Below, piece after piece: positions 34,766 to 52,790 of a stretch of DNA of 64,000 nt; within the stretch, counting starts at the first letter, position 1; each line of letters starts with the position of its first letter. Source of the stretch: Ignavibacteriales bacterium (GTDB taxonomy: Bacteria > Bacteroidota > Ignavibacteria > Ignavibacteriales > Melioribacteraceae). The notes under the pieces were generated by a model. That model was not told the origin of the DNA, did no database searches, and saw nothing but the letters and a program-made list of their open reading frames with translations. Position numbers and translations under genes: made by a program. The stretch lies in the NCBI GenBank assembly GCA_026390795.1, contig JAPLFG010000003.1:1922001-1986000 (forward strand), read 5' to 3'.

Positions 34766-34818
34766 TTCAACTGTTTACATTTTGCTGTTTTACAACAAAA
34801 AATTTAAATTATTAAGTT

Positions 34819-35559
34819 ATGTTTGGAAAAAGAAAAAATCAAAATTTAAGTTTAACCGTTTTAATTATTACTAGCATAATAATAATTTTTAATAGTAAAA
34901 AATCAACGGGTACAGAAACTATAATTTACAGGGAAAAGGTGAATTGTACTTTAAAAATAAGTAATCAGGATCAACCCCACGAAATCGTTAAGAAAAAATC
35001 AAAATTTACTAAGACAGTTATTTATAATGGGAAGACATATCATACAGTAGAAATAGGATCCCAAGTATGGCTGAGAGAGAATCTTGATGTTGGAGAGATG
35101 ATACCAGGGAATAAAAGTGCAGGCAATAACGGAATAATTGAAAAATATTGTTATGATAATAAACAAGAGAATTGTGATAAATATGGTGGTTTGTACCAGT
35201 GGGATGAAGCGATGCAATATGGTAAAACACCCGGTGCAAGAGGTATCTGTCCGGAAAGTTGGCATATCCCAACATTTGAAGAATTACAAACATTATTAGC
35301 AGAAGTATATAACAGAGGTACTGCATTAAAATTAGAAGGAACCAACAGTACTGGATTTTCTGCTTTGTTAGCTGGATATCGTCGCAATGATAATGGTACT
35401 TTCCGAAATTTAAGTACAATTGCAAATATTTGGAGTTCGACTGAGAATAATTCATCTGGCGCATATTATCTTTATCTCTTTAAAGAAGAAAGTGCTGCTA
35501 TTGATCTGATTTGGAATAGTAAAGTAAACGGCTTTAGTGTACGTTGTATTAAAGATTAA
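34819..35559 (+). CDS. FISUMP-domain protein with N-terminal membrane anchor
   Basis: The 246-residue protein has a single hydrophobic segment (about residues 11-27), a degenerate repeat of the domain start (T-E-T-I-I-Y near 34), then a complete FISUMP domain from about residue 64. Shared motifs with the upstream fusion are V-W-L-R-E-N-L, G-L-Y-Q-W-D-E-A, C-P-E-S-W-H-I-P, F-S-A-L-L-A-G-Y-R and G-F-S-V-R-C-I-K-D. It is probably anchored in a membrane with the domain outside. It is a partial tandem duplicate of the 3' end of the upstream gene. Its function is unknown. Confidence 0.8.
   Translation: MFGKRKNQNLSLTVLIITSIIIIFNSKKSTGTETIIYREKVNCTLKISNQDQPHEIVKKKSKFTKTVIYNGKTYHTVEIGSQVWLRENLDVGEMIPGNKSAGNNGIIEKYCYDNKQENCDKYGGLYQWDEAMQYGKTPGARGICPESWHIPTFEELQTLLAEVYNRGTALKLEGTNSTGFSALLAGYRRNDNGTFRNLSTIANIWSSTENNSSGAYYLYLFKEESAAIDLIWNSKVNGFSVRCIKD
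35008..35066 (+). repeat. Direct repeat copy 2 (59 bp identical to 34220-34278)
   Basis: This is the second copy of the FISUMP-start sequence. Identity drops sharply on the 5' side and gradually on the 3' side, where most changes are at third codon positions. Confidence 0.9.
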
Positions 35560-36020: not shown

Positions 36021-37481
36021 TTACCGATTACAAATACGTAGTGCTGTTCGAAACGAAAGTTTTGTTATCGCTTCAAATAAATTTTGATTTAGCGTTTCGT
36101 GTTTATCTGATAACATATGCAAATGTTTGTAACTATTTGTCGTAACAAAGTATAAAGTCTGAATCCCTTTTTCAAAAAATGGATCTGCGTCAGCGCCGCC
36201 GCCGTTACCTGTAGCCGGTACTAAAAGTTTGTTATTCTCAAAATCAATTTGTCTTGCGATATTCCATAGTTCCGGTGCGCTTTTCCCTCCGCCGATTTGG
36301 ATGCTGTCCCCGTAACCAACACAATCCATGTTGATCATTGCTTTTACTTTTTCTTTGGGAAAAGGCAAATTATTTGAGAAGAATTTCGCACCGTACAAAC
36401 CTTGTTCTTCACTTGCAAAAAACACGAATGCGATAGATCGTTTTGGTCTAATATTACTTTTTGAAAAAGCTCTTGCAATCTGTAGAAGCGCAGCAGATCC
36501 AGAGGCGTTATCATTTGCACCGGGAAAATAGATTTTACCGGCTTGACTGCCGACATGATCAAGATGAGCTCCGATTATCAGATATTCATTTTTCAACACC
36601 GGATCGCTTCCTTCCAAAATGCCAACAACATTCACGACCTCTTTTTCTTTTTCGTACTTGGTGTGAACCTCAAGATCAACTTTATTTACTAGCGAAACCG
36701 ATAAAGGTTTTTTTGTCGAATCAATTATTGTCTGTAATTTTTTTAGTGTGTAGGAACTTCCACTCATCAATTCATCGGCAACCGGAAGATCAATGTGAAT
36801 TTCCGGGAAATCAGTCATCTGTTCGCCTTCACCGTTGATAACACTTCCGATTGGACTTTGAGGTTCTGCATCATTTGGAAATGAAGTGAATAGAATTCCG
36901 ATTGCACCGTGGTTAGCTGCGACTATTGCTTTCTCGCGCGGGTTGCCGTTCGTAAATGCCTTTTCATCAATATTCCATTTGGGATTATACTTAAAAACCA
37001 TTACTACTTTTCCTTTTACATCGATACCCGAATAATCATCATAACCTTTATCTGGCTGAGCCAATCCGTATCCGCAAAAAACAACAGGCGCAGTTAATTT
37101 ACCAGCGCCGGTGAATCCGCGGTAAACATAATCTCTACCGATTTTGTGATCAATCCGTTTTCCATTTTGAATAACGGCAAAATGTTCGGGAGCGAGAATT
37201 TCATTGTATTCGACTTTAAATTTTTGAAAATAATCTTTGCCATTGACCGGTTTCAGAACTGTTTTATGTAATTCAGCCGAAATGAAATTTGCTGCCTTAG
37301 TATAACCTTTACTTCCAGGAAGTCTACCAGCAAGTTCTTTACTCGCTAGAAACTTCACTGTTTTCATCAATTCACTTTTTGTAATTGAAGCGACGGCACT
37401 ATCTTTTGGTTGAGAGTAAATCAAAGGCGTGAAGAGAACGATTAAAGATAAAACGCAAATAACCCAGCGTCGAATTGCCAT
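36021..37481 (-). CDS. Secreted M28 family zinc aminopeptidase with PA domain
   Basis: The 486-residue protein begins with a signal peptide (M-A-I-R-R-W, hydrophobic core, then Y-S-Q). A protease-associated domain occupies about residues 110-260 (V-F-C-G-Y-G-L, Y-D-D-Y-S-G-I-D-V-K-G-K). The M28 catalytic domain follows with I-I-G-A-H-L-D-H-V-G, P-G-A-N-D-N-A-S-G, F-A-S-E-E-Q-G-L-Y-G, N-M-D-C-V-G-Y-G and the last histidine in S-D-K-H-E-T-L. All zinc ligands and the general-base Glu appear present. It should cleave N-terminal residues from peptides in the periplasm or outside the cell. It stands alone between intergenic gaps. Confidence 0.92.
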   Translation of the reverse strand: MAIRRWVICVLSLIVLFTPLIYSQPKDSAVASITKSELMKTVKFLASKELAGRLPGSKGYTKAANFISAELHKTVLKPVNGKDYFQKFKVEYNEILAPEHFAVIQNGKRIDHKIGRDYVYRGFTGAGKLTAPVVFCGYGLAQPDKGYDDYSGIDVKGKVVMVFKYNPKWNIDEKAFTNGNPREKAIVAANHGAIGILFTSFPNDAEPQSPIGSVINGEGEQMTDFPEIHIDLPVADELMSGSSYTLKKLQTIIDSTKKPLSVSLVNKVDLEVHTKYEKEKEVVNVVGILEGSDPVLKNEYLIIGAHLDHVGSQAGKIYFPGANDNASGSAALLQIARAFSKSNIRPKRSIAFVFFASEEQGLYGAKFFSNNLPFPKEKVKAMINMDCVGYGDSIQIGGGKSAPELWNIARQIDFENNKLLVPATGNGGGADADPFFEKGIQTLYFVTTNSYKHLHMLSDKHETLNQNLFEAITKLSFRTALRICNR

Positions 37482-37764
37482 TTTTTACTCCGGATTTAAT
37501 GTCTGAAAAATTCTATTAAAAATATACAGAAATACTTTTTGATAAAAGTGAAATATAAACCAAAGCTTCAGTCGGTTAATTCAGCACTTTTTGCCTTTTC
37601 ATCAGATTCAGATACCCTCACTTTGTAGTAAAACTAACGAGAATGTATATCTATTCTTTTTAAACTTTTGCCAAATCGATACACCACAGTACTTAATAAT
37701 AGATCTATGTTAGCGAGCGAATTACTTAAAATATTTTTCAAACTTTATTTGATATGGAGTAAAA

Positions 37765-38406
37765 ATGCAACGAAGTAACGGAAGTAAAAAAGCAAACCAA
37801 TCAGACAATTCTAACCTACCAAAACAGAGTGGGGGGAAAAACTCACTGGACCGCAAGGTAAAAAAATCTGAATATATTAAAGTCACAGATCTTGTCTCTG
37901 CCCAGAAGTCTATTCAGAACCAACTCGAAGATCATCAAAATGGACTGATAACAGATCAGCACTTTAAAACTCAAAGTTTTGGCCTTCAGACATGGGCTTC
38001 ATTCGAAAAAATGAAAATCGAAGAGTCAAAAATTGTACCTTTAATAGATATGAGCATGAAAAATTTGCGAGTTGAAATCCACCATAAGTTTATGGCTTTT
38101 GTACAAGCGGTTCGATGGATAATAAATGATGATGAAAAAAATGAGAAGATAAATCAAATATATAATGAGAAATGGAATTCTTCACAATTGAACCTTGAAG
38201 ATGAGAAAGAGAATCTTCTAAAAAAAATTAAAAAGGAGACAGGATTTAGCGTCATCGACAATTCAAGCAAAGAACACGAGATAAACTTTCAGAACATTAA
38301 AAATCTAATTATCAATTTGCCGCCATCGTACGTAGAGAAATTAGAAGAATTTATCAAAAGCAGAAATTATGACATAATCGTACCGGAAGGAAAATCAAAG
38401 TTGTAG
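37765..38406 (+). CDS. Hypothetical protein upstream of terminase
   Basis: I do not recognise this 213-residue protein. The first 35 residues are polar, basic and probably disordered. The rest is charged and helical, with a segment from about 120 to 165 that is coiled-coil-like. There is no signal peptide or membrane helix. A GGAG precedes the ATG at a good distance. It is the first of three small co-directional genes ending at the terminase gene, so a packaging or head-assembly accessory role is possible by position only. Prophage origin of this module is inferred. Confidence 0.6.
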   Translation: MQRSNGSKKANQSDNSNLPKQSGGKNSLDRKVKKSEYIKVTDLVSAQKSIQNQLEDHQNGLITDQHFKTQSFGLQTWASFEKMKIEESKIVPLIDMSMKNLRVEIHHKFMAFVQAVRWIINDDEKNEKINQIYNEKWNSSQLNLEDEKENLLKKIKKETGFSVIDNSSKEHEINFQNIKNLIINLPPSYVEKLEEFIKSRNYDIIVPEGKSKL

Positions 38407-38456
38407 TTTGAATTATTATTCTCAAAGGAATATTTATTTTTTAAACTCATTGAAGA

Positions 38457-38834
38457 TTGGAGGCAATCATGGATATAAAAAAGATTAAGAAATCGTCTAA
38501 ACAACCAAACGCTGGAACAATAGAAACCTTGGAACACGCACACATAAATACCAGGGCCGTTGACCAAATCATATCTAGTTATGTCAATCCACACGCCGGA
38601 CTTAAATATGCAATGGCCACCCTAATCCAAATTGTAGAAGACTCAAAGAATTTTGAAGGAGAAATAGTTGTTTTATTAAAAGAGACGAATGCAATGTTGG
38701 CGAATAATAAAAGGAGGTTCTCCGATGATGAACACCGATATTGGAAAGAAAGAATTGAAAATGCATTAATAATAATTTCAGATCTTCCAAATAAAGTTAA
38801 CCTTACGATACAGGGAATTAAGGGAGTTTTATAA
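38457..38834 (+). CDS. Hypothetical protein, phage-module member
   Basis: The 125-residue protein starts at an ATG with a strong GGAGG 6 bp upstream. It is soluble and helical, without recognisable motifs; I cannot assign a function. Its TAA stop at 38832-38834 is followed in the same frame by 71 more sense codons to 39050, so the two may once have been a single gene or are translationally coupled. The gene order (small acidic proteins, then terminase) resembles a phage packaging region, where the small terminase subunit would be expected. Confidence 0.6.
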   Translation: MEAIMDIKKIKKSSKQPNAGTIETLEHAHINTRAVDQIISSYVNPHAGLKYAMATLIQIVEDSKNFEGEIVVLLKETNAMLANNKRRFSDDEHRYWKERIENALIIISDLPNKVNLTIQGIKGVL

Positions 38835-39050
38835 GTTGTACAAATCGCAATAAAGAACGACGAAGAGGCAAAATATTATCAAGAAGCCGGGATTTTTTTA
38901 GAAGATACTTTTAAGGCTCTAAGCGTACTTGACCATCAGAATTATTACCGATACAAAGAGAAATTATTAGAGTTGCAACCTACAAGTCGTAATTATTTTG
39001 ACTCATTCGAAGAGAAGGGACTAGCGCCCGACATGGAACCAATATCATAA
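38835..39050 (+). pseudogene. Small 71-codon frame without a usable start, between hypothetical gene and terminase
   Basis: The open frame encodes a charged, coding-like peptide (K-N-D-E-E-A-K-Y-Y-Q-E-A-G-I-F-L-E-D-T-F then Y-Y-R-Y-K-E-K-L-L-E-L). It has no ATG, GTG or TTG near its 5' end. An AAGGGAG ends about 10 bp before a TTG at 38836, but that TTG is in another frame and stops after five codons. Adding one A to the AAA at 38842-38844 would join the TTG start to this frame. It is therefore either a real small gene with a one-base deletion (mutation or read error) or the tail of the upstream gene cut by a stop. Confidence 0.5.
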
Positions 39051-39073
39051 CCCAAGAAAACAGCATAATTAAA

Positions 39074-41047
39074 TTGAATATTGCGGTCTTTGATTCACCA
39101 ATTATTATGCGGGAAAGTAATCCGCTTGCTAAGATTAAATTGAAAGCACGCAGAGAATGGTCTGAAGGCAAGTCCGCTAACATCATCACGAGGAGCGACT
39201 TCAAAGTAAAAGAAGTTGCAGACGTCCTATCCTTCCAAAGAGAATTCTTAGGAAGAAACGAGTTAAGCCCGAAACAAGCAGAAGCATATTTAGCCCTTTG
39301 GGGAAAGAAAGGCGGAGAATGGAACACCAAACACCACGAAACAGTATTGCTAATCGGGATGAAAGGCGGAAAAAACTTTTGGGCGGAAGGCGACATAGCA
39401 TATACTTGCTATCTTATCAGTTGCATGAGAGACCCGCACGACTTCTTTAGTAAAATAACGGGCAGACCAGTACCGTACACGATAGAGAAAACATTCGACT
39501 TAGTAAACGTGAGCTCCGTAGATGAAGGGCAAGCGCGACGTTCATTCTTTGATTCAGTTAAGAAGATTCTAAAACTAACCAAAGACCCGCTGAGTAGAGA
39601 AAATTGGTTTGAAAAATACGCCGGACTAGATTTGCGCGAGCAGTTCGGAGACTTTGGAAGGCGAGAGATTATATTCCCTACCGACCAGCACGGAAAAGGC
39701 GGAATAAGACTCTTAAGTTTTAACAGTACCAGCACCGCACCCGAAGGAATCCACATTTTAAGATATTATGCAGATGAATTAAGCCGAGCAAGTAGCAAAA
39801 TGAAACATCACCAAGCCGTCGGTTTGCTGGAATTAGGGCTCAATAACACAAGCGCGAGCTTCCCGAATAGAGTTGGAAAAGTGATTGAATGGAGTTACCC
39901 GAACGATACAGATTTTGACCTCACCTATGAAAGATATGAATTAAGCCACACCGAAGAGAATATTTTAGGTATGAAGTGCCCGACGTTTGAATTCAATCCC
40001 AGTTTAACGCGCGAAATGCTGGAAGATAGATATAGAATCGACCCGAAGAAAGCCCGCAGAGTTTATGAGTGCGAGAAATCCATTTCAAAAGACAACTTCT
40101 TCCAGCCGTATGTTGAGAAGTTAGACCAAATGGTAAACCCAGCCGTCGAAGGCAAACTCATTTATAAGCCGACCATCATAACAAGAAAAACCAACAGACC
40201 GGACGGAACCGACTACCACTTTTCAAGCGTAGAGATATTAGCCCTTAAAGGAGATTTACGTAAGCGCTGTTTTACGCTCGACCCTTCAAAAGTAAGAGAC
40301 AGATTTACAATTTTAGGCGGATACAACGAAAATATAGACCCGCTCAAAATGGATGTTTTTATTGAAGACAAGCCCGAGATAATCGCAACCAATGTAAGAC
40401 CAGTTGTGGATATTGTAATTGTAATCGAGCCTAGCCCAGAAGCGCCTGTAGATTATATCGGAGTTGGAGACATTTTCACCCAGCTAATAAAAGTCTTTCC
40501 GAATACGCAGAGCGTAAACTCCGACCACTTCCAGAATGAAAAGCTCCGCCAAGAAGTTATCGCAAAAGGAGTACAAGCCGAGACGTATTTCTTTTCAAAC
40601 AGTAAACAAGTTCAGCTATACACCTACCTAAGAGCGAATGTGTGGAACAATAACATTGAATTTTATCAAGACCGACACACCTTAAAGTTTGCCAATAAAG
40701 ATATGAACATAACCGAAGCTCTCATTTGGGAAGCTAGAGCGGTATTAAAGGACGGCAACAAAATCGACCATCCGGCATGGGGAAGTAAGGATATTCTTGA
40801 TTCGCTTACAATTCTCAACTGGGATTTAATGCAGCTGGAAGCCAAAGGAAACACTAATGAAGATTTGAAGGATGAAAACTTAATAGCATACCTCAATCAG
40901 TTTGCTAAAGAATACATGAAATTAGAAGAATTCGACTTGCCCTATGAAGAGATATTGAAACGATTAGTAGGAATCATGCATTTATCACAGCACCAAGTTG
41001 ATAGAGTAGCGACCTTATATGCGGAGAAATATGGAATAGATAGATGA
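39074..41047 (+). CDS. Phage terminase large subunit-like protein (TerL)
   Basis: This 657-residue protein has the order of a terminase ATPase plus nuclease. It has a Walker A-like L-I-G-M-K-G-G-K-N-F (Lys100, with Asn where Ser/Thr is usual), V-S-S-V-D-E-G-Q-A-R-R-S-F-F as the adenine/coupling region, and Walker B Y-Y-A-D-E-L (Asp234/Glu235). Then come G-K-V-I-E-W-S-Y-P-N-D-T-D and F-E-F-N-P, and an RNase H-like C-terminal half. Terminases pump and cut phage DNA into capsids. No portal, protease or capsid gene follows, so it is an orphan. By eye it is richer in G+C than its surroundings. The TTG at 39074 lacks a good ribosome site and the frame is open further upstream. Confidence 0.8.
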   Translation: MNIAVFDSPIIMRESNPLAKIKLKARREWSEGKSANIITRSDFKVKEVADVLSFQREFLGRNELSPKQAEAYLALWGKKGGEWNTKHHETVLLIGMKGGKNFWAEGDIAYTCYLISCMRDPHDFFSKITGRPVPYTIEKTFDLVNVSSVDEGQARRSFFDSVKKILKLTKDPLSRENWFEKYAGLDLREQFGDFGRREIIFPTDQHGKGGIRLLSFNSTSTAPEGIHILRYYADELSRASSKMKHHQAVGLLELGLNNTSASFPNRVGKVIEWSYPNDTDFDLTYERYELSHTEENILGMKCPTFEFNPSLTREMLEDRYRIDPKKARRVYECEKSISKDNFFQPYVEKLDQMVNPAVEGKLIYKPTIITRKTNRPDGTDYHFSSVEILALKGDLRKRCFTLDPSKVRDRFTILGGYNENIDPLKMDVFIEDKPEIIATNVRPVVDIVIVIEPSPEAPVDYIGVGDIFTQLIKVFPNTQSVNSDHFQNEKLRQEVIAKGVQAETYFFSNSKQVQLYTYLRANVWNNNIEFYQDRHTLKFANKDMNITEALIWEARAVLKDGNKIDHPAWGSKDILDSLTILNWDLMQLEAKGNTNEDLKDENLIAYLNQFAKEYMKLEEFDLPYEEILKRLVGIMHLSQHQVDRVATLYAEKYGIDR

Positions 41048-41201
41048 AAAAAACATACGAATAAAATACCGCTGGAATATTCATACTAATTTCTGAAGAA
41101 TGATTTTTAAGAAATGTTTCCTCTCATGTCACATTAGTACTTTCATTTTTCTTCGGCCTACTACAAAATTTATAATTTTCCACTCAGACCAAAATTGACA
41201 A

Positions 41202-41665
41202 ATGGAGGTTAGTATAAATTCTACATACAGATTTGTTCAATACACTGAACAACATTGTTCATTTCTAATGAAGAAGGACCTATCTAAAATTGTTTAAGTT
41301 AAGCCAGATGATTTCCAATTGGATTTGTGTTCTTAATTTGAAGAAACAGAGTAAATATTAAAGCATGATGAGTTTGGGCGAGTTAATTTAAGAAGTATAA
41401 AAAAAACGAATCTAGATCAAATTGAAAGATTTATTGTCAGACAAGGTCTTGAATACCTATAGTGCTTCCCATGATTATAGTGATATAATATAGCTACTGT
41501 CTCCGATAAATTTGAAGGAAAACGCTTTTGGGATCGAGAGAAATTAGGAAAATATCTTGTTAAATATTTATTTGATCTCGAAGTCCATCCATTTAAAACA
41601 TAAGATTTTACAGAGGATGACACTTTTGTTAAGGAAATTCTTCGAACGGAACTTAAAATAGTCTA
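41202..41665 (+). pseudogene. Remnant of an unidentified protein gene with stops and frameshifts
   Basis: One frame starts with M-E-V-S-I-N-S-T-Y-R-F-V-Q-Y at an ATG near 41202 and resumes between stops as I-L-K-H-D-E-F-G-R-V-N-L-R-S-I-K-K-T-N-L and D-Q-I-E-R-F-I-V-R-Q-G-L-E-Y-L. After a frame change it continues as V-S-D-K-F-E-G-K-R-F-W-D-R-E-K-L-G-K-Y-L and D-F-T-E-D-D-T-F-V-K-E-I-L-R. The composition is coding-like, but at least three stops and one frameshift break it. I do not recognise the family. Confidence 0.4.
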
Positions 41666-42070
41666 GTTTCTGTATAGTCTTGTTCCTCGTAAAGATTTAC
41701 TGGAAATAACAATAATATTGATTTAAAATTCAAGATTTACCTTTATTGTGTCTTTGATTTAAAGAAACCAAGGCAAAAATAAAGTAGAAATTTAAGCATA
41801 ATGAATTCTTGCATTATAATTTGACGGACAAAAAATAGTGTTTTTATGCTAAAATCATTATTTGAGTTTTGACGAGGCTCTGAATAGCAACATGTTAAAG
41901 TTTATCTTCAAAATATGCTTTGCTCTTTAAATACTGCCCTGTCTCCAATAGAAGATCCAAGTTGAAGTTTATGAATTTGATATATATAATTCATGACCAT
42001 TATTGTGATAGCTGATAAGATTTTGGGTATGACCCCTACAAATGAAGTATACGTACCAAATCATTTCTTC

Positions 42071-42099
42071 TTGTTTATACTTATAAAAGTATGTATAAT
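42071..42099 (+). promoter_or_regulatory. Candidate BrnTA promoter with operator-like inverted repeat
   Basis: A TTGTTT (42071-42076) and TATAAT (42094-42099) are separated by exactly 17 bp. Between them the perfect inverted repeat ATACTT/AAGTAT (42077-42082 and 42087-42092) fills the spacer. BrnA antitoxins are ribbon-helix-helix-like repressors of their own operon, so this is a plausible autoregulatory operator. The TTG start of brnT lies 26 bp beyond the -10 element. Confidence 0.55.
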
Positions 42100-42125
42100 T
42101 GTATGGCTAATTCATAGGACTGTAC

Positions 42126-42410
42126 TTGTTAAATGTTTCTTCCGAATGGGATGAACTAAAAAATCTGCAAAATCAGGAAAAACATTCTATCTCATTCGAA
42201 GATGCTCAGGCCGCATTCTCAGATCCTAAAAGAATTATTGCTGAAGATATAGAGCATAGCCAGAAAGAAAAAAGATATTACTGTTTCGGTCAAATTGAAG
42301 ATGTTAAAGTTACAGTTCGCTTCACTCACAGAGAAAATATTATAAGAATATTTGGCGCCGGTTACTGGCGTAAAGGAAAGCAAATCTATGAAAGAGAAAA
42401 TAAAATATAG
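42126..42410 (+). CDS. brnT: BrnT family toxin
   Basis: The 94-residue protein matches the BrnT pattern: S-E-W-D-E-L-K-N-L-Q-N-Q-E-K-H-S-I-S-F-E-D-A near the start, F-S-D-P-K-R near 32, then strands ending in V-R-F-T-H-R-E-N-I-I-R-I-F-G-A. BrnT is a RelE-like ribonuclease that inhibits translation under stress. Expected catalytic features are retained by eye, although the usual H-G-I-S-F-E motif reads H-S-I-S-F-E. The start is TTG at 42126; the nearby ATG is out of frame. Its 3' end overlaps the antitoxin gene. Confidence 0.85.
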   Translation: MLNVSSEWDELKNLQNQEKHSISFEDAQAAFSDPKRIIAEDIEHSQKEKRYYCFGQIEDVKVTVRFTHRENIIRIFGAGYWRKGKQIYERENKI

Positions 42411-42621
42411 CAATCACAAAATTGGCAAAATCAAAATAATTAAAGACTTTCTGCCTAAACCTGAAGAACTAATCTTCAAAGATGATAGTGTTAAGGTTAC
42501 ACTTAACCTAAGTAAATCGAGCATAGATTTTTTTAAGGGTATAGCAAAAAATAAGGGTAGCAAGTACCAAAAGATAATCCGCAAACTATTGGACTCTTAT
42601 TCTTCTCACTATTCTTCGTGA
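42388..42621 (+). CDS. brnA: BrnA-type / CopG-like antitoxin
   Basis: The antitoxin is best started at ATG 42388 inside the brnT 3' end, giving 77 residues; an upstream in-frame ATG at 42352 would overlap more deeply. The C-terminal half carries V-K-V-T-L-N-L-S-K-S-S-I-D-F-F-K and Y-Q-K-I-I-R-K-L-L-D, the DNA-binding ribbon-helix-helix part found in BrnA/CopG-type antitoxins. The N-terminal half (L-P-K-P-E-E-L) would wrap the toxin. It should neutralise BrnT and repress the promoter at 42071-42099. Confidence 0.8.
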   Translation: MKEKIKYSNHKIGKIKIIKDFLPKPEELIFKDDSVKVTLNLSKSSIDFFKGIAKNKGSKYQKIIRKLLDSYSSHYSS

Positions 42622-42696
42622 TGTCTGTATCCAAAATTCTGTCCGTTTATAAGAAGTAGAGAAATTGTATGATAAATATAAACGTATAGAAAGAAT

Positions 42697-42897
42697 ATGA
42701 GGGATAGTCAATTATTTAAACATACAGAGTTGTTATTGAGAATACTTCCGATTGTAAATCAAGAAAATGTTTTTGCTTTAAAGGGCGGAACTGCAAATAA
42801 TTTTTTTGTTCGTGAATTACTGGGGTTGTCCGTTGATATTGATTTTGTTTATTTCCCGGTAAATAAGAGGTTAGAATCTTTCGAGATGAAGAGATAA
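42697..42897 (+). pseudogene. N-terminal remnant of an AbiEii/AbiGII-type nucleotidyltransferase toxin
   Basis: The 66 codons match the start of AbiEii toxins: F-K-H-T-E-L-L-L-R-I-L-P, then F-A-L-K-G-G-T-A-N-N-F-F-V and the catalytic-type S-V-D-I-D-F-V-Y. Full-length AbiEii is about 300 residues, so most of the protein is missing after a stop at 42897. I see no continuation in any frame before the recombinase gene. The partner AbiEi antitoxin is also absent. The Lys-Gly-Gly-Thr and D-I-D motifs survive, but the fragment is unlikely to be active. Confidence 0.65.
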
Positions 42898-43110
42898 TCT
42901 AATATTTTGTTGATTATCATGTGTCTATTATTCTTGCCAAATGTCAACTATTCTTAACGCTTAGATAAATGAAAAGTTTGGTAAATCCAAAAAAATCAGC
43001 ATTAACCAAGTCCCTTTAGAATTATCTATGATGAAAGGCGTGATTGAAAATCGGCAACAGATCATATCTTTATATCTTATCGGTATTTATTTTTTTTCAG
43101 TTGCTCTGAT

Positions 43111-44154
43111 CTATTCATATCCTCGAAAATTTTTTGTGAATTTCAATGTCTGAACGAATTCCAATGAATGATTAATTGGAAATTTATACTGAACTTCAAT
43201 GTAATCGTTGAAGAGTCTTATACTTTCAATATTATGTAAAATGATTTCCTGAGTTAAAGCTTTTTCGTTCGAATAGGGGAGAACTAATTTCGATTTACTA
43301 TCATTCAATTCGCCAAGGAGCTTAAGTTGTGCGAGCAAATAATTCTGTGCTTGCTCAATTTCAAGATCCAAATGCTCGGCAAAATATTCTCCAAGATTTT
43401 TATATGTCACTCTTGCTTCATCAAGTAATTTATCTTGAAATAATTTTATATACTTATTGATTCTCGAACTGTCAGAGATCCTATCGTGGAGTTCAGTAAT
43501 TACGAAGTGGTCAATTAAATCTTGTTTATGCAACCGAGAATTCTTACAAGTATTTTCGCCGGATGATTGTCTTGAAGTGCAATAATAGTATAAAGTCTTT
43601 TCACTATTTTTAATAGTGACGGATGATTTAACCGGTCCATGACAGTAACCACATTTAAAAATTCCAATAGCACTGAGTAAGTATTTTGTCCGCTCCTTTC
43701 TTTTCGGGGCTACAAATTTTGATAAACTCTCGGCTCTAATTTTCAATAATCTGAAATAGTCAAGTTCTGATAAAAGCGCTTCCCAATCTCCTGGTTTATC
43801 ATGGTTAGTCAGTCCCTGATAAAACTTCAAACGAGCAGGGGAGAGCATGTAACTAACTGTAGTAGCGCTCCATCGCTTTCCCCGTCTTGGCATAAATCCA
43901 ATTGTGTTTAGCTCGTCAGCAATATTTGTTACACCATAATCTCTTTTTGCAAGTTCAAATATTTTCAGGATTACGATTTTTTCATCAGGATTAATAATCA
44001 ATGTTGATGTTTTTTTGTCAAATGAATAGCCAAACGGTTGACCTCCACCTTTCCATTTTCCCATGTATAACTCCAATAAATTCTGTTTGCCAAAGAAAAG
44101 CTTATCAATAACAAAATATAGAGAATAGAGCAATAAATAACAAAAGTACTTCAT
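43111..44154 (-). pseudogene. Large serine recombinase lacking the N-terminal catalytic domain
   Basis: From about residue 31 the protein is the Recombinase domain of a large serine recombinase (G-K-W-K-G-G-G-Q-P-F-G-Y, then the L-N-T-I-G-F-M-P-R-R-G-K-R-W helix-turn region). It is followed by a zinc ribbon (C-G-Y-C-H-G-P-V ... Y-Y-Y-C-T-S-R ... C) and a C-terminal coiled coil. The first about 140 residues, which hold the active-site serine, are missing. They are replaced by about 30 hydrophobic residues unlike any recombinase. Upstream codons to an in-frame stop near 44205 do not supply them. It was probably the integrase of a mobile element, now inactive. Confidence 0.75.
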
Positions 44155-44218
44155 TTGGGTCTTAAATGGCGAATTTTCGAATGAATCATCGCCGACTTCA
44201 TCTATCTATTCTTACGAC

Positions 44219-44277
44219 TTGACAATTAAGTTCTAATTTATTAATCTTGCTAAGTGATAAGGTATATTTAGCAAGAT
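44219..44277 (+). promoter_or_regulatory. TTGACA box and 10-bp perfect inverted repeat upstream of the SbcCD-like operon
   Basis: A TTGACA occurs at 44219-44224, with an AT-rich stretch downstream but no strong -10 at the ideal spacing. ATCTTGCTAA (44244-44253) is perfectly mirrored by TTAGCAAGAT (44268-44277) across a 14-bp loop, 57 bp before the operon's first ATG. It could be an operator or an RNA hairpin in the leader. Confidence 0.45.
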
Positions 44278-44334
44278 AAGCTTGAGCCAATTAAATTGGA
44301 ATAAAATTTAGAACAGTTTAGAAATGGAGAAAAT

Positions 44335-45225
44335 ATGAACATAATGCTCAGAACCAACTTAGAGTTGGAGAATTTTTTAAGTAAGAAAAAAATATCACAG
44401 ATTATACTTATCCCACCAATGCGGCTCTATGATAATGGATTAACTATTTCTATAGTCCCGGTAGAACTTGATACCGAATTTGAGCCGAGCTCAAGCTTTA
44501 ACGGTGATATCTGGAAATTAACCAGTAATAAATTTTCACTCACTCGAAATGCTCTAGACAAAATAGCCACTGCAGCAAGGATTAAATTTTCTAACAGCAG
44601 GATGTTATCAAGAGAAGTCAATGACGATGGAAGAGTAATTTACATCAAGCATCAAATCCAATATGAACTTCTTTGTACCGACGGAAGCAATAGAAGTTCA
44701 TCAACAACCGGTGAATATAACTACCACGAAGATTTATCAAGATTCCGTTTTTTGGAGGACATTATTCATGAGGGTGTAATAATTCATAAAAAGGGAGATC
44801 TAAATATTGAGCTAGTTGAGCGACGCAGAAACAATTCTGGATCTTTTGCAGAAGGAAATGCAAAGTCGAAAGCGCTCGGAGAAGTATTTTCTGAAATTAA
44901 AAAATCGTTCACACTAGAAGAATTACAAATCCCGATTCTTGTCGGGCGGGTCGTTGTAGATATTGAAGACATTCTATTGAAAAATCCAGAATTAAAATCA
45001 CACTATGCAGCAAAACTTCTCGATATCTCTAACCTTGCATATAATCTACCGCTCAATATTAACAATAAAGATTTATTGTCTTCTGCTTCAAACCGTGTAA
45101 ACAATAATGTATCAAATCAAATTCTACTTGCTACTAAAAAAAGAAGTGCAAGAAAAAACTCCAACTCAAAGCAAATAGAATTAATTCATAAAAAAGAAGA
45201 AACAAATCAATCTTTAATTTCGTAG
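44335..45225 (+). CDS. Hypothetical protein, first gene of SbcCD-like operon
   Basis: I do not recognise this 296-residue protein with confidence. It is soluble, with a beta-rich first half (I-I-L-I-P-P-M-R-L-Y, then I-Y-I-K-H-Q-I-Q-Y-E-L), a charged central segment F-A-E-G-N-A-K-S-K-A-L-G-E-V-F, then T-L-E-E-L-Q-I-P-I-L-V-G-R-V-V. The tail is Asn/Ser/Lys-rich. The central segment faintly recalls single-strand-annealing proteins that phages encode next to SbcCD-type nucleases; that is only a hunch. GGAG precedes the ATG. It ends 9 bp before the nuclease gene, so it is almost certainly co-expressed with it. Confidence 0.65.
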   Translation: MNIMLRTNLELENFLSKKKISQIILIPPMRLYDNGLTISIVPVELDTEFEPSSSFNGDIWKLTSNKFSLTRNALDKIATAARIKFSNSRMLSREVNDDGRVIYIKHQIQYELLCTDGSNRSSSTTGEYNYHEDLSRFRFLEDIIHEGVIIHKKGDLNIELVERRRNNSGSFAEGNAKSKALGEVFSEIKKSFTLEELQIPILVGRVVVDIEDILLKNPELKSHYAAKLLDISNLAYNLPLNINNKDLLSSASNRVNNNVSNQILLATKKRSARKNSNSKQIELIHKKEETNQSLIS

Positions 45226-45234
45226 GGAGCTTAA

Positions 45235-46395
45235 ATGAAATTAATTCATACTGCCGACTGGCATTTAGGTTCAGATCCTAAGCAACAATTAAAAGCGAGA
45301 GAGAGCTTAGATCAAATTGTTAAGTATTGCAATGAAGTTGAGATCGATGGAATCATTATTGCAGGTGATCTATGGGATTCAATCCAAAGCTTCGGTAATG
45401 ATACTGGGATAAAAATTGCACTAGAATACTTAAGGATTCTTTCGGATCTAGTAAAATTTATTTTTATAATCAAAGGTAATTCAGCTCATGATGCACGTGA
45501 AAGCATAAAACTTTTAGACCATCTGGAACAAAATATATTTACAATTGAAAATAATGTTGCTCTTGGTTTTAAAATCTTTAATGGGATTACTGCAACCGAT
45601 CTGTTCAAAGAAAAATCTCAAGGACCGATCGACTTATTAATACATGGCATCAGTTATCCGACAAAAGCTAATCTTTTAATTGGTACAGAAATCGATCAGC
45701 AAAATTTCAATTTTATCGAAATATTCTCTCGACTTTTAGGATTGCATGGAGATATAAGTGGCCGATACCCTGAAGTGCCGAAACTTACAGTCTTTCATGG
45801 AAATGTTTCTGGTTGTAAATTGTCTTCGGGGCAAACTCTTGTTGGTCAGGACATAATTATTCCATCCTACGAACTTGAAAAAACCAGAAGCAATTACTAC
45901 GCGCTCGGGCATATACATCTTCCTCAAAATATTAGTCCGATTATGCGTTATTCGGGTTCTCTTTATAATAAAGATTTTGGTGAGATTGAACAAAAGTATT
46001 TTGGTCTGATCGAATTTAATGGTGTTGAATGTTCAGTAACCAATATTCCTCTTCGGTCCAGTAGACCTATGATAATCATTGATGCAGAATTTAAAGGAGG
46101 ACACTTTCATTATAACAAAACAATTCCACATGGGGCCGAAATAAAATTAAGATGTTCGGTTAATGAAGCAGAACGAATCCTTATAACCTCAAGCGATTTG
46201 GATAAACTGAAATCAGAATTAGGAAGTGATCTCAAAATCGAGTTTGATGTTACTCCCACTGTTCGATCCAGCCGTAATGAAAAAATCATGCAATCCAAAA
46301 CTCTCCTTGAAGAGATCCATGAATATGCCAATGTTATAGGTGAGATGGTGCCTGATGGAATAAATGAAAAAATTAAAGATTTAGAATTTATTTAG
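45235..46395 (+). CDS. SbcD/Mre11-like metallophosphoesterase nuclease
   Basis: The 386-residue protein carries the five phosphoesterase motifs of Mre11/SbcD: Asp8/His10 (T-A-D-W-H-L-G), Asp45 (A-G-D-L-W-D), G-N-S-A-H-D (81-86), His188 (V-F-H-G-N) and His226/His228 (G-H-I-H). The third motif is a variant: the usual G-N-H-D is replaced by G-N-S-x-H-D, a spacing that recalls phage-type SbcD proteins. It should form a Mn-dependent nuclease with the ATPase encoded 11 bp downstream, trimming DNA ends and opening hairpins. AGGGAG precedes the start. Confidence 0.88.
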   Translation: MKLIHTADWHLGSDPKQQLKARESLDQIVKYCNEVEIDGIIIAGDLWDSIQSFGNDTGIKIALEYLRILSDLVKFIFIIKGNSAHDARESIKLLDHLEQNIFTIENNVALGFKIFNGITATDLFKEKSQGPIDLLIHGISYPTKANLLIGTEIDQQNFNFIEIFSRLLGLHGDISGRYPEVPKLTVFHGNVSGCKLSSGQTLVGQDIIIPSYELEKTRSNYYALGHIHLPQNISPIMRYSGSLYNKDFGEIEQKYFGLIEFNGVECSVTNIPLRSSRPMIIIDAEFKGGHFHYNKTIPHGAEIKLRCSVNEAERILITSSDLDKLKSELGSDLKIEFDVTPTVRSSRNEKIMQSKTLLEEIHEYANVIGEMVPDGINEKIKDLEFI

Positions 46396-46406
46396 GGGAA
46401 TGAATT

Positions 46407-49133
46407 ATGAAAATATTAAAGCTTGAACTCAGAGGCGCAATTGGAATTCTGAAAGGGATTGGAAGAGAAGAAATTGCAATTGATTTTTCAATTTTTGATA
46501 ATGGATTAATTGCGCTTGTCGGAGAAAACGGGCGAGGGAAAACAACTATAATAGAGAATCTGCATCCCTTTCGAAGACTCATATCGAGAGAAGGAAATCT
46601 TTCTGATCATTTTATCATGAAGGATTCTTTTAGAAAATTAGCATTTGAATTAAATGGTAAAGTTTATAACTCTGAAATCTACATCGACGGAATAACAAAA
46701 AAGATGGAGGCATATCTTAGATGCGATGGGTATGCTCTCAATGATGGAAAGCCGACAAGTTACGACCAGCTCATCGAACGACTTTTAGGAAGTGAGGAAC
46801 TATTTATAAATAGTGTTTTTAGTGCTCAGAAAAGTAGAGGTATATCAAGCCTATCAGCAAATCAAAGGAGGGAACTCTTTTATGAGTTGCTCAGACTCAA
46901 TCAATATGAGGTCTACTGCCAGGAAGCAAAAGTAAAAATAAGATCTATAGAATTAGAACATTCCCTGAAAAAAGGGGAAATCAACCAGCTTGAAAGTCAA
47001 TGTAAAAAATTGAAATCTATTGAAGAGGACTACAATAGAATAGTGATAGAAAATGTAACACTTTCAAATGAAATAATTATTCATGAAGAACAAATTCAAC
47101 TTTGCCGTTCTAATATTGAAGAGATGCACAAAGAGGAAGCTCTACTCAATGAAAAAATCAACCAACAAGCAATTCTTAATGGAAACATCGCTGCCTTATC
47201 GGAAGATCTCATTAACGTGGAAAAAAATATCGAAGATCGACTCAATGCACTCTTTGAGGAGAGGGATGAAGCTCTAAAAAGAGAGAGTGATAAATCAGGG
47301 GCCTCAAATTCATTGAAAGCTGAACGATCGCGCCTCGAATATGAAATACAACAAGTTAATAGTCATGACCATTGGGTAATAATAAAACACGAGATAGAGA
47401 GTCTTCAATTGGAGAATATCAAATTGAAGGAAGAAATCAAACTTCTCCAAGAATATTCAGCTCAAGAAGAAGAAGTCGATCGACTTATCCTCACAAGAGA
47501 TACTTTAAGAGAAGAATCGACGAAGCTGACTGAATCAGAATTATCCTTATCAACAGAATTAACTAGAATACAGCATGAAGAAAAACAAGAAGCTAATTTG
47601 ATTTTACCATTATATGAAGGGATACAAATTGTTAAAAATGAATTAGTGGAATTAACCAATCAATTTAAGATGTTTACTTCAGATAGAGAAAGCCTTATTA
47701 GTACTAATAGAGAAAAATTAGAAAGTATTGAACATGAAATAAAAACTCTTGATTTAGTTCCATGTGAAGAGATGGTTGCTATGAACTGTCCTCTCATAAA
47801 AAATGCATACTTACGTAAAGAATCGATTGAACCCCTAAGAAAGGATTATGAGAAAATACTATCGGCATTTGGAGTTAGACTAAGTAAAACATCTTCCGAG
47901 ATTGATGACCGAAATAATTCATTTAATAGGAAGACCATCGAACTGCAAAATTCAGAAAAAGCTCTAACTATAAAATATCAGCGACTATACGGACAGATAC
48001 AGGCGAAACAAGATCGAATAAAAATCACTAAGAGTTCCAAGCTTAAAGAATTAGAAATACTTGAAGCTTCCAAATTAGATTTTCGTAAAAAAAAGATTGA
48101 TGATTATAAAATTCTTAGCTCTTCCTCGTTAATAAAAATCGAAAATAATGAGAACTTAATATTGGTGAAGATAGATCTGTTAAATGAAATATCGCTGAAA
48201 GAGAATTCAAATCTAGAAGCATTAAATAATAAAATAAAAGATATCATCAATCAGATCGAAAATCTAGAAGCTCAAAAAATTTCTGCCATTGAAAGCCTCA
48301 AGAGTCAATATGTTCAAAAAGAAATTGCACTTAAAAATGAAGAGTTGTTTAGATGTGATCATTTCAACAAACTGATTGCCGAAGCTCAAATTAAATTGGA
48401 CCCGATGTTAAACAACAAACTAATAATACTTAAAGAAAATCTGAGAAAGCTAGAAAACTCAATGCAGCTTCAGTTGACTGAACTGGCAACACTTCAGAAG
48501 AAGATAATGGAGCATCAAGGAAAAATTCTTCTTCATTCTGAGGAACTAAAAAGAAAGGAAGAAATCGAAATCAGTTTGATTAGCTCACATCTTGCTCTCA
48601 AACAACTTGAAAAAGAGCATGCTGACTATCACTTTCTTGAAAGGGCATTCGATAAAACAGGAATACCGGTATTGAAGTTGGAAAATACAGGTTACGAAAT
48701 TACATCCCTCGCGAATGATCTTCTAAAGTATTTTGATAATGATTTTAGAATTGTATTTGAAACTATGCGACCAACTAAGGATAAGAAGAAAATGAAAGAA
48801 GTATTCGACATAAATGTTATTGACTCAGAAGGAATATGCGAATTAAAAAATAAATCAGGTGGTGAGAGAGTATGGATCGAAACTAGCATTCAATTAGCAA
48901 TAGGAATACTTCTTCGACATCAGGGGAAAAATCTTCAGACAAGTTTCTTGGATGAACAGGATGGATCACTTGATATAGAAAACGCACTTAATTATCGTCA
49001 GATGATAGAAAGTGCCCACCGAAGAGCTGATGTCTTCAATACTATTATAATAACACACCGACAAGAATTGCTTGAGCTTATATCTCAAAAAATCCTTTTG
49101 GATGAAGAAGGAATTAGAATAATTCTTAACTGA
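46407..49133 (+). CDS. SbcC/Rad50-like SMC-family ATPase
   Basis: This 908-residue protein has Walker A G-E-N-G-R-G-K-T (39-46), a long two-way coiled coil (about 170-440 and 470-780), the signature S-G-G-E-R from Ser817 and Walker B F-L-D-E-Q-D-G-S-L-D (Asp849/Glu850) with an intact D-loop. It should clamp DNA ends and drive the partner nuclease. Near residue 451 the coil apex has P-C-E-E-M-V-A-M-N-C-P-L, two Cys seven residues apart instead of the C-X-X-C zinc hook. It is shorter than E. coli SbcC (about 1,050). It sits 11 bp after the nuclease gene and 5-17 bp before the TPR gene. Confidence 0.88.
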   Translation: MKILKLELRGAIGILKGIGREEIAIDFSIFDNGLIALVGENGRGKTTIIENLHPFRRLISREGNLSDHFIMKDSFRKLAFELNGKVYNSEIYIDGITKKMEAYLRCDGYALNDGKPTSYDQLIERLLGSEELFINSVFSAQKSRGISSLSANQRRELFYELLRLNQYEVYCQEAKVKIRSIELEHSLKKGEINQLESQCKKLKSIEEDYNRIVIENVTLSNEIIIHEEQIQLCRSNIEEMHKEEALLNEKINQQAILNGNIAALSEDLINVEKNIEDRLNALFEERDEALKRESDKSGASNSLKAERSRLEYEIQQVNSHDHWVIIKHEIESLQLENIKLKEEIKLLQEYSAQEEEVDRLILTRDTLREESTKLTESELSLSTELTRIQHEEKQEANLILPLYEGIQIVKNELVELTNQFKMFTSDRESLISTNREKLESIEHEIKTLDLVPCEEMVAMNCPLIKNAYLRKESIEPLRKDYEKILSAFGVRLSKTSSEIDDRNNSFNRKTIELQNSEKALTIKYQRLYGQIQAKQDRIKITKSSKLKELEILEASKLDFRKKKIDDYKILSSSSLIKIENNENLILVKIDLLNEISLKENSNLEALNNKIKDIINQIENLEAQKISAIESLKSQYVQKEIALKNEELFRCDHFNKLIAEAQIKLDPMLNNKLIILKENLRKLENSMQLQLTELATLQKKIMEHQGKILLHSEELKRKEEIEISLISSHLALKQLEKEHADYHFLERAFDKTGIPVLKLENTGYEITSLANDLLKYFDNDFRIVFETMRPTKDKKKMKEVFDINVIDSEGICELKNKSGGERVWIETSIQLAIGILLRHQGKNLQTSFLDEQDGSLDIENALNYRQMIESAHRRADVFNTIIITHRQELLELISQKILLDEEGIRIILN

Positions 49134-49150
49134 AAATTATGGAGAAGATC

Positions 49151-50311
49151 ATGATTAAATACTATTTCAGAATTACACCCTACATATTGGATTCCAACCA
49201 TAATGTTGTAGATCCATTGTATACGACTTATGAAGATTTACCTATAAATGATGAAATCAAAAATAAAATAAAACTCTGGGTTAAAACGATTAAAAGTTAT
49301 GTTGAAAAACCAAATAGTTATTACAGCATAAAAAGTATTCATTGGTATGCTCTAAAATTAAAAGAAGAGATACAGCAATATTTGGGAGAAGAATGGAAAA
49401 TTATTTGTTGTTCAAAACAAAAGATAATAGGATATCTGTTTGATGAACTTAAAAAAGTAGCTAATTTTCATAAAAAAGAAGGACATTACTTTAAAGCTAT
49501 CGAATACTATAAAGGATCCATTGCATTAAACCCAAGGGATTATGAAGTATTAAATAGTATTGCTTTTTGTTATTATGAATTAGATCTGCTTGAGGATGCA
49601 TGTTACCACTTAAAATTAAATATTGAACAAAGCCCTTTCCACGCTCCTGCCTTTTTCAATTTGGGTCTTTGTTATAGGAAGTCAAATGATTTTGTGGTTG
49701 CCGGAATTTATTTTGAAAAGGCAAAGAATCTTAATCCCGAAAATGTTGACTATATTATTAATTATGCACACAATTTTATCGATTTAAAGTTTTATAAAAT
49801 GGCAATCGAAATTCTACTTGCTGCATCCATTAAAATGAATGGGAATAGAGAAATATTAGAAAAACTTTCTTATGCTTATTTACATGCCGAAGAATATCTA
49901 GAATCAATAAAGTTATTACAAGAGCTTATACTACTTTATCCAGACGACCCTACCCTCATCTTTAAGTTAGGTTTTTGTTTTTCGCTAATTGACGAGAATG
50001 AAAAGTCCACTAAGTGCTATGTAGATGCGCTAAAAATAGATCCGGATTATGGCGAGTGTTATTACAATATCGCACTCAACTATCATTTTCAGGGGCTAGA
50101 TCATTTATCTGTAGACATGTATGTTCGGGCACTTTTACGTAATTCCCAGCATGCAGAACATTTTTGGCAAAGGAATAATTTACTTTTAAATCTAGATATT
50201 CCCGATGATTTCAAAGAAAAGATACTCATTTTCGGTTCAGAGAATGGGGACGAACGTGCAAAAATTATATTAGAAGATTCAAATTTACATCAACAAAATT
50301 CATATCAATAA
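49151..50311 (+). CDS. TPR-repeat protein, last gene of SbcCD-like operon
   Basis: The protein has about 386 residues. I prefer ATG 49151 to the in-frame ATG 49139, because a GGAG at 49141-49144 lies 6 bp before 49151 and would be inside the gene otherwise. The first about 110 residues are not repeats (W-V-K-T-I-K-S-Y, W-Y-A-L-K-L-K-E). About six to seven TPR motifs follow (for example F-K-A-I-E-Y-Y-K-G-S-I-A-L-N-P and F-F-N-L-G-L-C-Y-R-K). There is no signal peptide, so it is cytoplasmic. TPR proteins act as adaptors; partners here are probably the nuclease complex or the unknown first protein, inferred from co-transcription. Confidence 0.8.
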   Translation: MIKYYFRITPYILDSNHNVVDPLYTTYEDLPINDEIKNKIKLWVKTIKSYVEKPNSYYSIKSIHWYALKLKEEIQQYLGEEWKIICCSKQKIIGYLFDELKKVANFHKKEGHYFKAIEYYKGSIALNPRDYEVLNSIAFCYYELDLLEDACYHLKLNIEQSPFHAPAFFNLGLCYRKSNDFVVAGIYFEKAKNLNPENVDYIINYAHNFIDLKFYKMAIEILLAASIKMNGNREILEKLSYAYLHAEEYLESIKLLQELILLYPDDPTLIFKLGFCFSLIDENEKSTKCYVDALKIDPDYGECYYNIALNYHFQGLDHLSVDMYVRALLRNSQHAEHFWQRNNLLLNLDIPDDFKEKILIFGSENGDERAKIILEDSNLHQQNSYQ

Positions 50312-50729
50312 ATTTTATAAAAATCCTTTTAAACTACGAACGTAAATCCAAAGATAATTTGATATATCATTAAAAAAAAACCATCGTCGTAACAATTTAC
50401 TAAGTAAAGAAGATAATGTTACCAAAATCAAAGTGGAATATGAACATCAAAATTTTTTCTCGAGAAGTAAATAGAATACCTTAGGCGATTTTACGACAAA
50501 TTGAACCTAATCTTTGAGACTATATTTAAAGATAGTTCTTTTCCAAAATTTACATTGGTTTTCACTAGATGGTGGTGGGGGGGTATATGAAAATTTTTAC
50601 AAAATCATTGCTTTATAAACCGAAACCACAATATTTAAGAAATTAATACATTCTAAAAGCATCCAAAACCCGGCACCTTTGACAAAAACTAGTGTCTTTT
50701 TGTAAAAAATAGAAATGTAAATTCGTATT
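50312..50729. other. Gene-free convergent region (418 bp)
   Basis: This region lies between the SbcCD-like operon and a convergent core gene, and is probably the right edge of the accessory island. It contains a G-run near 50570-50582 and a weak A/T hairpin (50682-50703). I see no gene, tRNA or attachment-site repeat. Confidence 0.5.
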
Positions 50730-52790
50730 TCAGCTTAGCTGTTTTAACGCTTCATCCAAATCTGTTGTTGGCATGTTACAAGAAAAGTTTTTACACACAT
50801 AAAAGGTTGGTTGAGATTGAATGGTTGTGTATTTATTGAGATAGTTGAATGGGAGACAATGATTCTCATCTTCTTCATCTTCAAAAACAACAACTTTATT
50901 TGGTATAAATGGTTGAGAGAGTCGTGCTAATGTTTTTTTTGTTTTCTCATCATGAAAGTTGCCCGCAACAATAACCTCAAAACTCGGGCCCCAAGCGAAA
51001 TCCAATGAGCAAAGAAGCAGCGTGAATGCCTGCGGGTTTTTGCAAAGTATTGATGAAGCAGAGTCAAAAATTTTATTGGCAAAGGTTTCATATTTAGAGT
51101 CAGCAGTAATTCTTGCAAGGCGCAAAAGATTAGTGGCCAAAACCGAGTTTGCCGAAGGGATTGCACCGTCATAATATTCTTTTGTCCTTGCGATTAACGA
51201 TTCGCCAAAGTCAGGTGTGAAGAAAAAACCACCGTTATTATTATCCCAGAAATGTTTAATAGATAATTCGGTTAATAGAATTGCTTCCTTTATATAATCA
51301 GCTTTGAAAGTTGATTCATACAATTCAAGCAGCGCCCAGATCGTAAATGCATTGTCATCGATATTGGCAGTTAAACTCGATTCACCATTTCTGAATCTGT
51401 GTAATAATCTACCATCTGCGATTGTTAGATGTCTATTTATGAATTCAAGTGCGAGCTCTGCAGTCTTAATATATTTAGAATTATCAAACACACGTCCTGC
51501 TTTTGCTAGTGCAGCAATCATTAAAGCATTCCAATCCGAAAGGATCTTATCATCTTTATAAGGGCGAATTCTATTTTTGCGGTATTCAAAAAGTTTAATC
51601 CGAATTTTTTCCAAACGATTTTCACTAACTAAATTTTCTTTTGAATCGGCAAGATGTAAAATGTTTGAACCTGTATTCTGATTTGTTGATTCTTCTTTGA
51701 AATTACCTTCAGCGCTTATTTTAAATACTTTGAATGCAATGTCAGCATCATCTTTTCCAAGAACATCTATTAATTCTTGTTGATTCCAGATGTAATATTT
51801 GCCTTCAACACCATCACTGTCCGCATCTTCGGCAGAATAAAACCCACCGTCGAGTGAAGTCATATCACGTAAAACGTACGATACAATTTCATCTACAGTT
51901 TCCTTGAATTCGCTAATTCCCGTTGCTTGGTACACTTCAATATAAGCCATTATTAAAAGCGCTTGATCGTATAACATTTTTTCAAAGTGCGGAACAAGCC
52001 ATTTAGCATCAGTTGAATATCTGTGAAAACCAAAACCAATTTGATCAAAAATCCCTCCCTGACGCATCTTGAGCAAAGTTTTGGTTACCATTTCAAGTGC
52101 CTTTTGAGTGCCGGTTCTTTTCCAATAACGGAGAAGAAACATCAAATTGTGGGGTGAAGGAAATTTTGGTGCTGTTCCAAAACCGCCGTGTACAGCATCA
52201 AATCGTTTTTCAAAATTCCTGTATGCATCCTCAAAAATTTCTGTACTTAATTGTTCCGGAGTATTGAAAGAGTATGATTCCTTGAGATAATTTGTAATTT
52301 CTTCCGAACTCTTTACAATCTCATTCCGATTTGTTCTCCATGCTTCATCAATTTTCAAAATTAAATCTTTAAATCCGATTCTTCCGTAGTGGCTTTCCTT
52401 GGGAAAATATGTTCCCGAGAAGAAGGGTTTTTTACCGGGAGTCATGATAATAGTTAAAGGCCAGCCACCGCTGCCGTTCATCATTTGACAGACCATCATA
52501 TAAATGTTATCAATATCAGGACGTTCTTCACGGTCAACTTTTATTGAAATGAAAACTTGATTCATTAGATGTGCTGTTTCTTCATCCTCAAATGATTCAT
52601 GTTCCATCACATGGCACCAATGGCAGGTTGAATATCCAATTGAAAGAAAGACAGGTTTATCCTCGCGCTTTGCTTTCTCAAAAGCTTCGTCACTCCACGG
52701 ATACCAATTAACGGGATTATGTGCATGCTGCAAAAGGTACGGACTTTTTTCGTTGATGAGTCGATTAGAATTTTGGCGAGATTGAATCAT
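50730..52790 (-). CDS. DUF255 / thioredoxin-domain protein (YyaL/SSP411-like)
   Basis: The 686-residue protein begins with [20 protein letters not shown] and a thioredoxin-like domain with the pair Cys56/Cys59 in S-T-C-H-W-C-H-V-M, all typical of the DUF255 family. The remainder is an alpha-toroid resembling six-hairpin glycosidases or epimerases ([24 protein letters not shown]). It has no signal peptide, so it is cytoplasmic. Family members are widespread but their reaction is not well defined. A remnant of a second copy lies at 55586-55681. Confidence 0.92.

Follow-up and report, generated by a model that had tools for sequence, protein, structure and literature searches.

Genes for a predicted RAD52-type protein and an SbcCD-like nuclease form a likely phage recombination cassette in a probable prophage remnant of an Ignavibacteriales genome

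We analysed a 64,000-nucleotide stretch of an Ignavibacteriales bacterium genome (assembly GCA_026390795.1, contig JAPLFG010000003.1; hereafter, the window), with the focus on four adjacent genes at 44335–50311. A sequence-only reading had described these genes as an operon for an unknown protein, an SbcD-like nuclease, an SbcC-like ATPase and a tetratricopeptide-repeat (TPR) protein, and had offered two explanations: a phage recombination module captured by the host, or a nuclease-based anti-phage system. We conclude that genes 1–3 are likely to be a phage homologous-recombination cassette. It probably lies in the remains of a prophage, and the TPR gene that follows it is unrelated. The first explanation held for genes 1–3, which recur as a cassette in the early regions of phages and prophages, an outcome that had been named in advance as favouring a phage module, and failed for the four genes as a unit.

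The operon proved to be real. According to the list of open reading frames (ORFs) of the window, four intact ORFs on the + strand span the region: gene 1 (44335–45225, 296 amino acids, aa), gene 2 (45235–46395, 386 aa), gene 3 (46407–49133, 908 aa) and gene 4 (49139–50311, 390 aa if counted from 49139). The genes are tightly spaced, with gaps of 9, 11 and 5 bp, and their ribosome sites are alike. For gene 4, the likely start is the second ATG (49151), with GGAG six bases 5' of it; counted to this ATG, the last gap is 17 bp, and the gap of "about 17 bp" reported earlier fits this choice. Predicted promoters and terminators showed no excess over shuffled sequence (24 vs. 29.5 and 2 vs. 3.2, respectively).

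The order gene 1–sbcD–sbcC was repeatedly found elsewhere. An IMG/VR scan that used SbcC, not gene 1, as its anchor returned 12 contigs, six of them new, and all 12 carried the three genes in this order. Three loci from cellular genomes shared it (L015, on a contig of G019; L016; and L010, in G184), for a total of 15 other loci, and in these gene 1 was directly or closely upstream of sbcD. Because the same order was seen in 15 other loci, we do not attribute it to chance. The cassette was not uniform: a helicase gene lay between sbcD and sbcC in L076, L084, L086 and L010, and small HNH-like ORFs were interposed in L035. Loci L076 and L086 look closely related, and the gene 1 match in L085 was weak (profile E 3.9e-9; none with the window protein alone). 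The cassette contigs measured 31.7–93.1 kb and may be fragments.

The neighbouring genes suggest that the cassette has a role in phage replication. Within the stretches examined around the first nine loci, the one that supplied the queries included, relatives of one helicase were present in all nine, and relatives of an integrase, a repressor and an excisionase-like helix-turn-helix (HTH) protein were each present in seven. The PHROG names obtained for ten proteins included integrase, repressor, helicase, replication initiation and DNA polymerase exonuclease, with two of the ten giving no match. Genes for single-stranded DNA-binding protein (SSB) were found in two cassette contigs (L076 and L084).

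A search for gene 1 among 296 genomes of the phylum matched three other genomes. The matches in G019 and G184 were genuine, with sbcD and sbcC behind gene 1; that in G184 was found by protein search and was missed by the profile of phrog_13782, the family to which gene 1 belongs. A match in G289 (E 9.1e-5) was dropped as spurious, as it reads as a response-regulator ORF. Genome G097 was not counted as a cassette locus: its gene 1 relative is cut off at the contig end and no cassette is visible, and by reading, the same contig also has integrase-like and HTH ORFs.

Family phrog_13782 is listed as of unknown function. It was the sole PHROG match of gene 1 (E 4.3e-10); NCBIfam gave no match, and Pfam none that was convincing. 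From the predicted fold and the gene context, we consider it likely that gene 1 encodes a RAD52-type single-strand annealing protein (SSAP). The model of the family member at L015 was built from ten sequences and had a predicted local distance difference test (pLDDT) score of 82; the model of the window protein, built from that protein and six sequences, had a score of 70. In the L015 model, strands at residues 93–104, 110–122 and 128–138 are followed by a helix at 164–180, and further strands lie at 46–53, 68–70 and 76–78. This order resembles the one described for the annealase core, in which a helix crosses three strands and a hairpin completes the unit (PMC11783212). RAD52 entries took rows 1–7 of the structural comparison for L015, with Z falling from 8.5 (72 residues at 2.5 Å) to 6.7, and the next fold was the dsRBD (Z 6.4). 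Against the viral library, 20 of the 50 listed rows were functionally named, and all 20 were Erf, Bet, Rad52, SSAP, recombination or repair.

Several results count against this reading. Gene 1 matched no Pfam SSAP family, and its best match among PDB sequences was at E 0.17. Among the first ten members, the window protein has diverged furthest (29% identical to L015), and it is without the C-terminal part of the others. In the window model, the dsRBD (Z 8.4) ties with RAD52 (Z 8.2); Foldseek placed Cj1090c first among its PDB rows, with RAD52 the next most numerous, and the viral-library list also held one portal protein and DUF7936 rows. Even the best Z for L015, 8.5, is barely above 7–8, the tool's typical range for models without a clear match; its seven RAD52 rows represent six human entries and one yeast entry, and full-length TM-scores were low for the gene 1 models. 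Lastly, searches of 50,697 deposited phage records with gene 1 (three queries) and SbcD (one query) returned no match.

The tie in the window model, together with the second place of dsRBD entries in the better model, raises the alternative that gene 1 is not an annealase and encodes some other part of the SbcCD-like complex that binds DNA or RNA, e.g., a subunit with a dsRBD-like fold. We regard this as unlikely, because in the better model dsRBD entries follow RAD52 by about two Z units, the named viral rows are recombination proteins, and SSB and replication genes are found near gene 1.

Genes 2 and 3 would supply the nuclease. The gene 2 protein matched the calcineurin-like phosphoesterase family PF00149 as well as SbcD profiles, and it keeps all five motif regions (DxH, GD, GN..HD, H, GHxH), including D8, H10, D45, H188 and GHIH. 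Its TIGR00619 score was 54.8–57.1 bits vs. a cut-off of 77.65, and we therefore call it SbcD-like. A profile of its clade reached E 1e-15 in three of the 296 genomes of the phylum. In a tree, the split between the clade and four cellular SbcD-like proteins had support of 100/99; the window protein has a long branch, and the tree does not settle its placement within the phage clade. We also observed that eight of the ten members read in this phage clade, the window protein among them, have two residues inserted between GN and HD (region of 45469–45486 in the window).

The gene 3 protein matched phrog_77, which is SbcC-like (E 9.7e-33). Its Walker A (GENGRGKT, with K45), signature (KSGGE) and Walker B (FLDEQD) motifs are intact and, together with ITHR, sit at the two ends of the long protein; in some distant members, some of these motif patterns were not found. 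None of 16 SbcC-like proteins, that of the window and 15 others, showed the CxxC zinc hook, and so we call the family SbcC-like. Instead, 14 of the 16 have VPC with a second cysteine 7–14 residues further on, which in the window is VPC-x7-C from residue 451 onward (47757–47789, + strand). These sequences suggest that the hook of the clade has changed, and the motifs retained in both proteins are consistent with nuclease activity and the processing of DNA ends.

A possible mechanism would be as follows. Given their retained motifs, the SbcC-like ATPase and the SbcD-like nuclease may bind DNA ends on phage DNA that is being replicated and trim them back. The product of gene 1, judging by its predicted fold and the genes around it, would then coat the exposed single strand and anneal it to a complementary strand, and broken or concatemeric phage DNA would thereby be joined before packaging. 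Labour would be split as in Red exo/beta or RecE/RecT, with the SbcCD-like complex playing the nuclease role.

We judged that gene 4 is not part of the conserved cassette. In a profile search it matched TPR models, and no TPR relative was seen beside any of the 15 other cassettes within the stretches examined. A search over the full length of eight virus records, of which six carry the cassette, gave none either, and in the same search two of three cellular genomes matched the TPR protein over its repeats only. Among 79 genomes of the family, 42 matched at 1e-10, but among the matches listed no other began before residue 95, and the best of the others was 24% identical over residues 102–376. 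The first 110 residues matched two of 395 genomes, namely its own and one of the 394 others, the latter at E 5.3e-4, with the matching frame broken by stops. The proposal of a four-gene unit was therefore not borne out, and the suggestion that the TPR protein acts as an adaptor or as a sensor of infection found no support. The same applies to a role in defence. With PADLOC-DB 2.0.0, only the SbcC-like protein (mad8, E 8.2e-4) and the TPR protein (PDC-M71B, E 8.5e-4 and 1.1e-3) gave matches, all of them weak; genes 1 and 2 and a recombinase-like protein encoded upstream matched nothing. We rejected a four-gene defence system, since no TPR linkage was seen in the loci examined and no PADLOC match was convincing.

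The operon had also been set apart from a standard housekeeping sbcDC locus, and we agree. We rejected a housekeeping sbcCD because the SbcD-like protein is below the family cut-off, lies within an insertion (described below) and groups apart from the four cellular proteins. The check for a separate housekeeping sbcCD, which had been proposed, found no SbcD over the cut-off in this genome, that of the operon included; a second SbcD match reads as a membrane phosphoesterase. Across the family, 2 of 76 genomes held an SbcD over the cut-off and 58 held weaker matches. The cell may have no complex of this kind besides the cassette, but relatives seem to do without one.

The lack of any other SbcD over the cut-off in the genome could mean that, once the phage had decayed, all four genes were retained by the host, in which they would provide, with the TPR protein as a partner, either its sole Mre11-Rad50-type repair complex or a nuclease-based defence. 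The four open ORFs with their close spacing and like ribosome sites, the intact SbcD and SbcC motifs, and the presence nearby of a BrnT toxin gene and an AbiEii fragment all fit a retained host unit. We nevertheless find it improbable: the TPR gene is missing beside the other cassettes, the PADLOC matches are weak, and, because relatives usually have no SbcD over the cut-off, there is no sign of need. Close copies of the genes, which would show selection, were not found. Similarly improbable, in our view, is a bolder proposal, in which phrog_13782 would be an unrecognised RAD52-type annealing branch that works with a hook-variant SbcCD, so that phages would have one more type of nuclease-annealase engine, and in which this host kept the set after phage decay, with the TPR protein as a new partner, as its sole Mre11-Rad50-type complex.

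The assignment of genes 1–3 to a prophage remnant agrees with their genomic setting. In two congeners, the genes that flank the region in the window, an M28 peptidase gene on the left (36021–37481, − strand) and a DUF255 gene on the right (50730–52790, − strand), lie side by side; therefore, the approximately 13.1 kb between them (37555–50702, ends approximate) is an insertion, and the accessory island that had been proposed is supported. In congener G047, 113 bp separate the alignable ends at 37554 and 50703, and the match to the M28 gene covers two parts of the gene only; in G176 the two genes likewise adjoin. The comparison rests on these two congeners, as the contig of G082 ends after 3.4 kb and the stretch from G297 has no M28 match. 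We looked for att-like repeats and recognised none. The island contains a phage terminase gene, a BrnT toxin gene, an AbiEii fragment, a recombinase-like gene and the operon, and is probably a prophage remnant. Near its left end, the ORFs at 37765 and 38457 had no Pfam match, and the former also had no PHROG match.

The terminase large-subunit gene (39074–41047, + strand; phrog_17415, E 1.7e-6) has relatives of 52–54% identity in five IMG/VR contigs, two of which had identical scores. Three of these five also hold the cassette. The converse comparison speaks against a single phage origin: 9 of the 12 cassette contigs showed no terminase relative (positives were 0/6 and 3/6 in two sets), and G310, a contig with a terminase relative, lacks the genes of the cassette, its one SbcC-profile match being at E 0.011. 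In addition, the terminase gene has a G+C content of 0.417 vs. 0.332–0.346 for the cassette, and in the window it lies upstream of the cassette. The island might accordingly be a patchwork, in which the terminase, the recombinase-like gene, the toxin genes and the cassette came from at least two phages or events. We consider this possible, though doubtful. Three contigs have a terminase relative as well as the cassette, five proteins of G310 recur in the cassette phages, integrase and repressor included, and L083 holds a relative of the recombinase-like gene together with the cassette, on the opposite strand and upstream, which is the arrangement of the window. Because the records are fragments, absences from them are weak evidence. 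We read the island as the remains of one phage group, with more than one event possible.

The recombinase-like gene (43111–44064, − strand; ORF from 44154, likely start 44064) matched PF07508 and PF13408, and its product is without the serine catalytic domain. The sequence-only reading had taken it for a remnant. Its relatives in two phages, L074 and L083, share this first residue and also lack the N-terminal catalytic part, which argues that the protein is probably not truncated. Members of this serine-recombinase-like family, which keeps the Recombinase and zinc-ribbon domains without the catalytic domain, are seen in the window, at L074:14324–15175 (+) and at L083:1–859 (−). In L074 (G310), the gene stands directly before one for a tyrosine integrase and overlaps its start by four bases. 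The family is possibly a helper of integration or excision.

The other neighbours named in that reading were largely upheld, i.e., the terminase, the BrnT toxin (42126–42410, match E 6e-21) and an AbiEii toxin remnant (42697–42897), whose 66 aa match positions 2–51 of 238. A small ORF (42352–42621) overlaps the BrnT ORF and lies behind it; its identity as the partner antitoxin was not confirmed. In congener G297, a stretch 67% identical to the AbiEii fragment lies near that genome's own DUF255 gene (L030:17200–17388). Outside the island, two neighbouring proteins of 802 and 246 aa (32357–35559) both end in Fib_succ_major domains.

What had appeared to be a new operon in this genome is explained as probable phage debris, and its interest lies in the proposed function of phrog_13782 and in the hook change, not in defence. 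Eukaryotes use an Mre11-Rad50-like nuclease and a RAD52-like protein in the repair of breaks by strand annealing, and the cassette pairs such a nuclease with a predicted RAD52-like protein in phage. A testable function is proposed for a phage family listed as unknown; should the pair prove active in E. coli, recombineering might make use of it, and the changed hook bears on the dimerisation of Rad50-like proteins. Within our partial coverage of the literature, we found no paper in which a phage RAD52-like protein is linked to SbcCD and none that names phrog_13782.

Several known systems resemble the cassette in part. Lamassu shares with it a Rad50-like coiled-coil ATPase in an accessory region (PMC10586767). 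We rejected a Lamassu-like reading: PADLOC gave no Lamassu match, no LmuA or LmuC was seen, an SbcD-like nuclease is present, and the Walker B motif keeps a glutamate where LmuB generally has glutamine (PMC10586767). In jumbo phages, phage-encoded SbcC and SbcD are taken as the core recombination apparatus (PMC7824862); the cassette differs in its link to a predicted annealing protein, in contigs of 31.7–93.1 kb, themselves perhaps fragments, and in the absence of the CxxC hook. In Firmicutes phages, annealing-protein genes adjoin nuclease or SSB genes, and in some streptococcal phages sak4 adjoins sbcC (PMC8093625). In the latter too, sbcC accompanies a recombinase gene, but Sak4 is grouped as RecA-like whereas gene 1 looks RAD52-like, and the cassette has sbcD as well. 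The pairs RecE/RecT and lambda Red exo/beta likewise place a nuclease gene next to that of an annealing protein, here a predicted one, in the phage early region (PMC8093625). Their nucleases are of the RecE/Exo type, in contrast to the SbcCD-like two-subunit ATPase-nuclease of the cassette, whose predicted annealing protein is of a family listed as unknown. The cassette is thus probably another phage nuclease-annealase recombination set, preserved in this genome as prophage debris.

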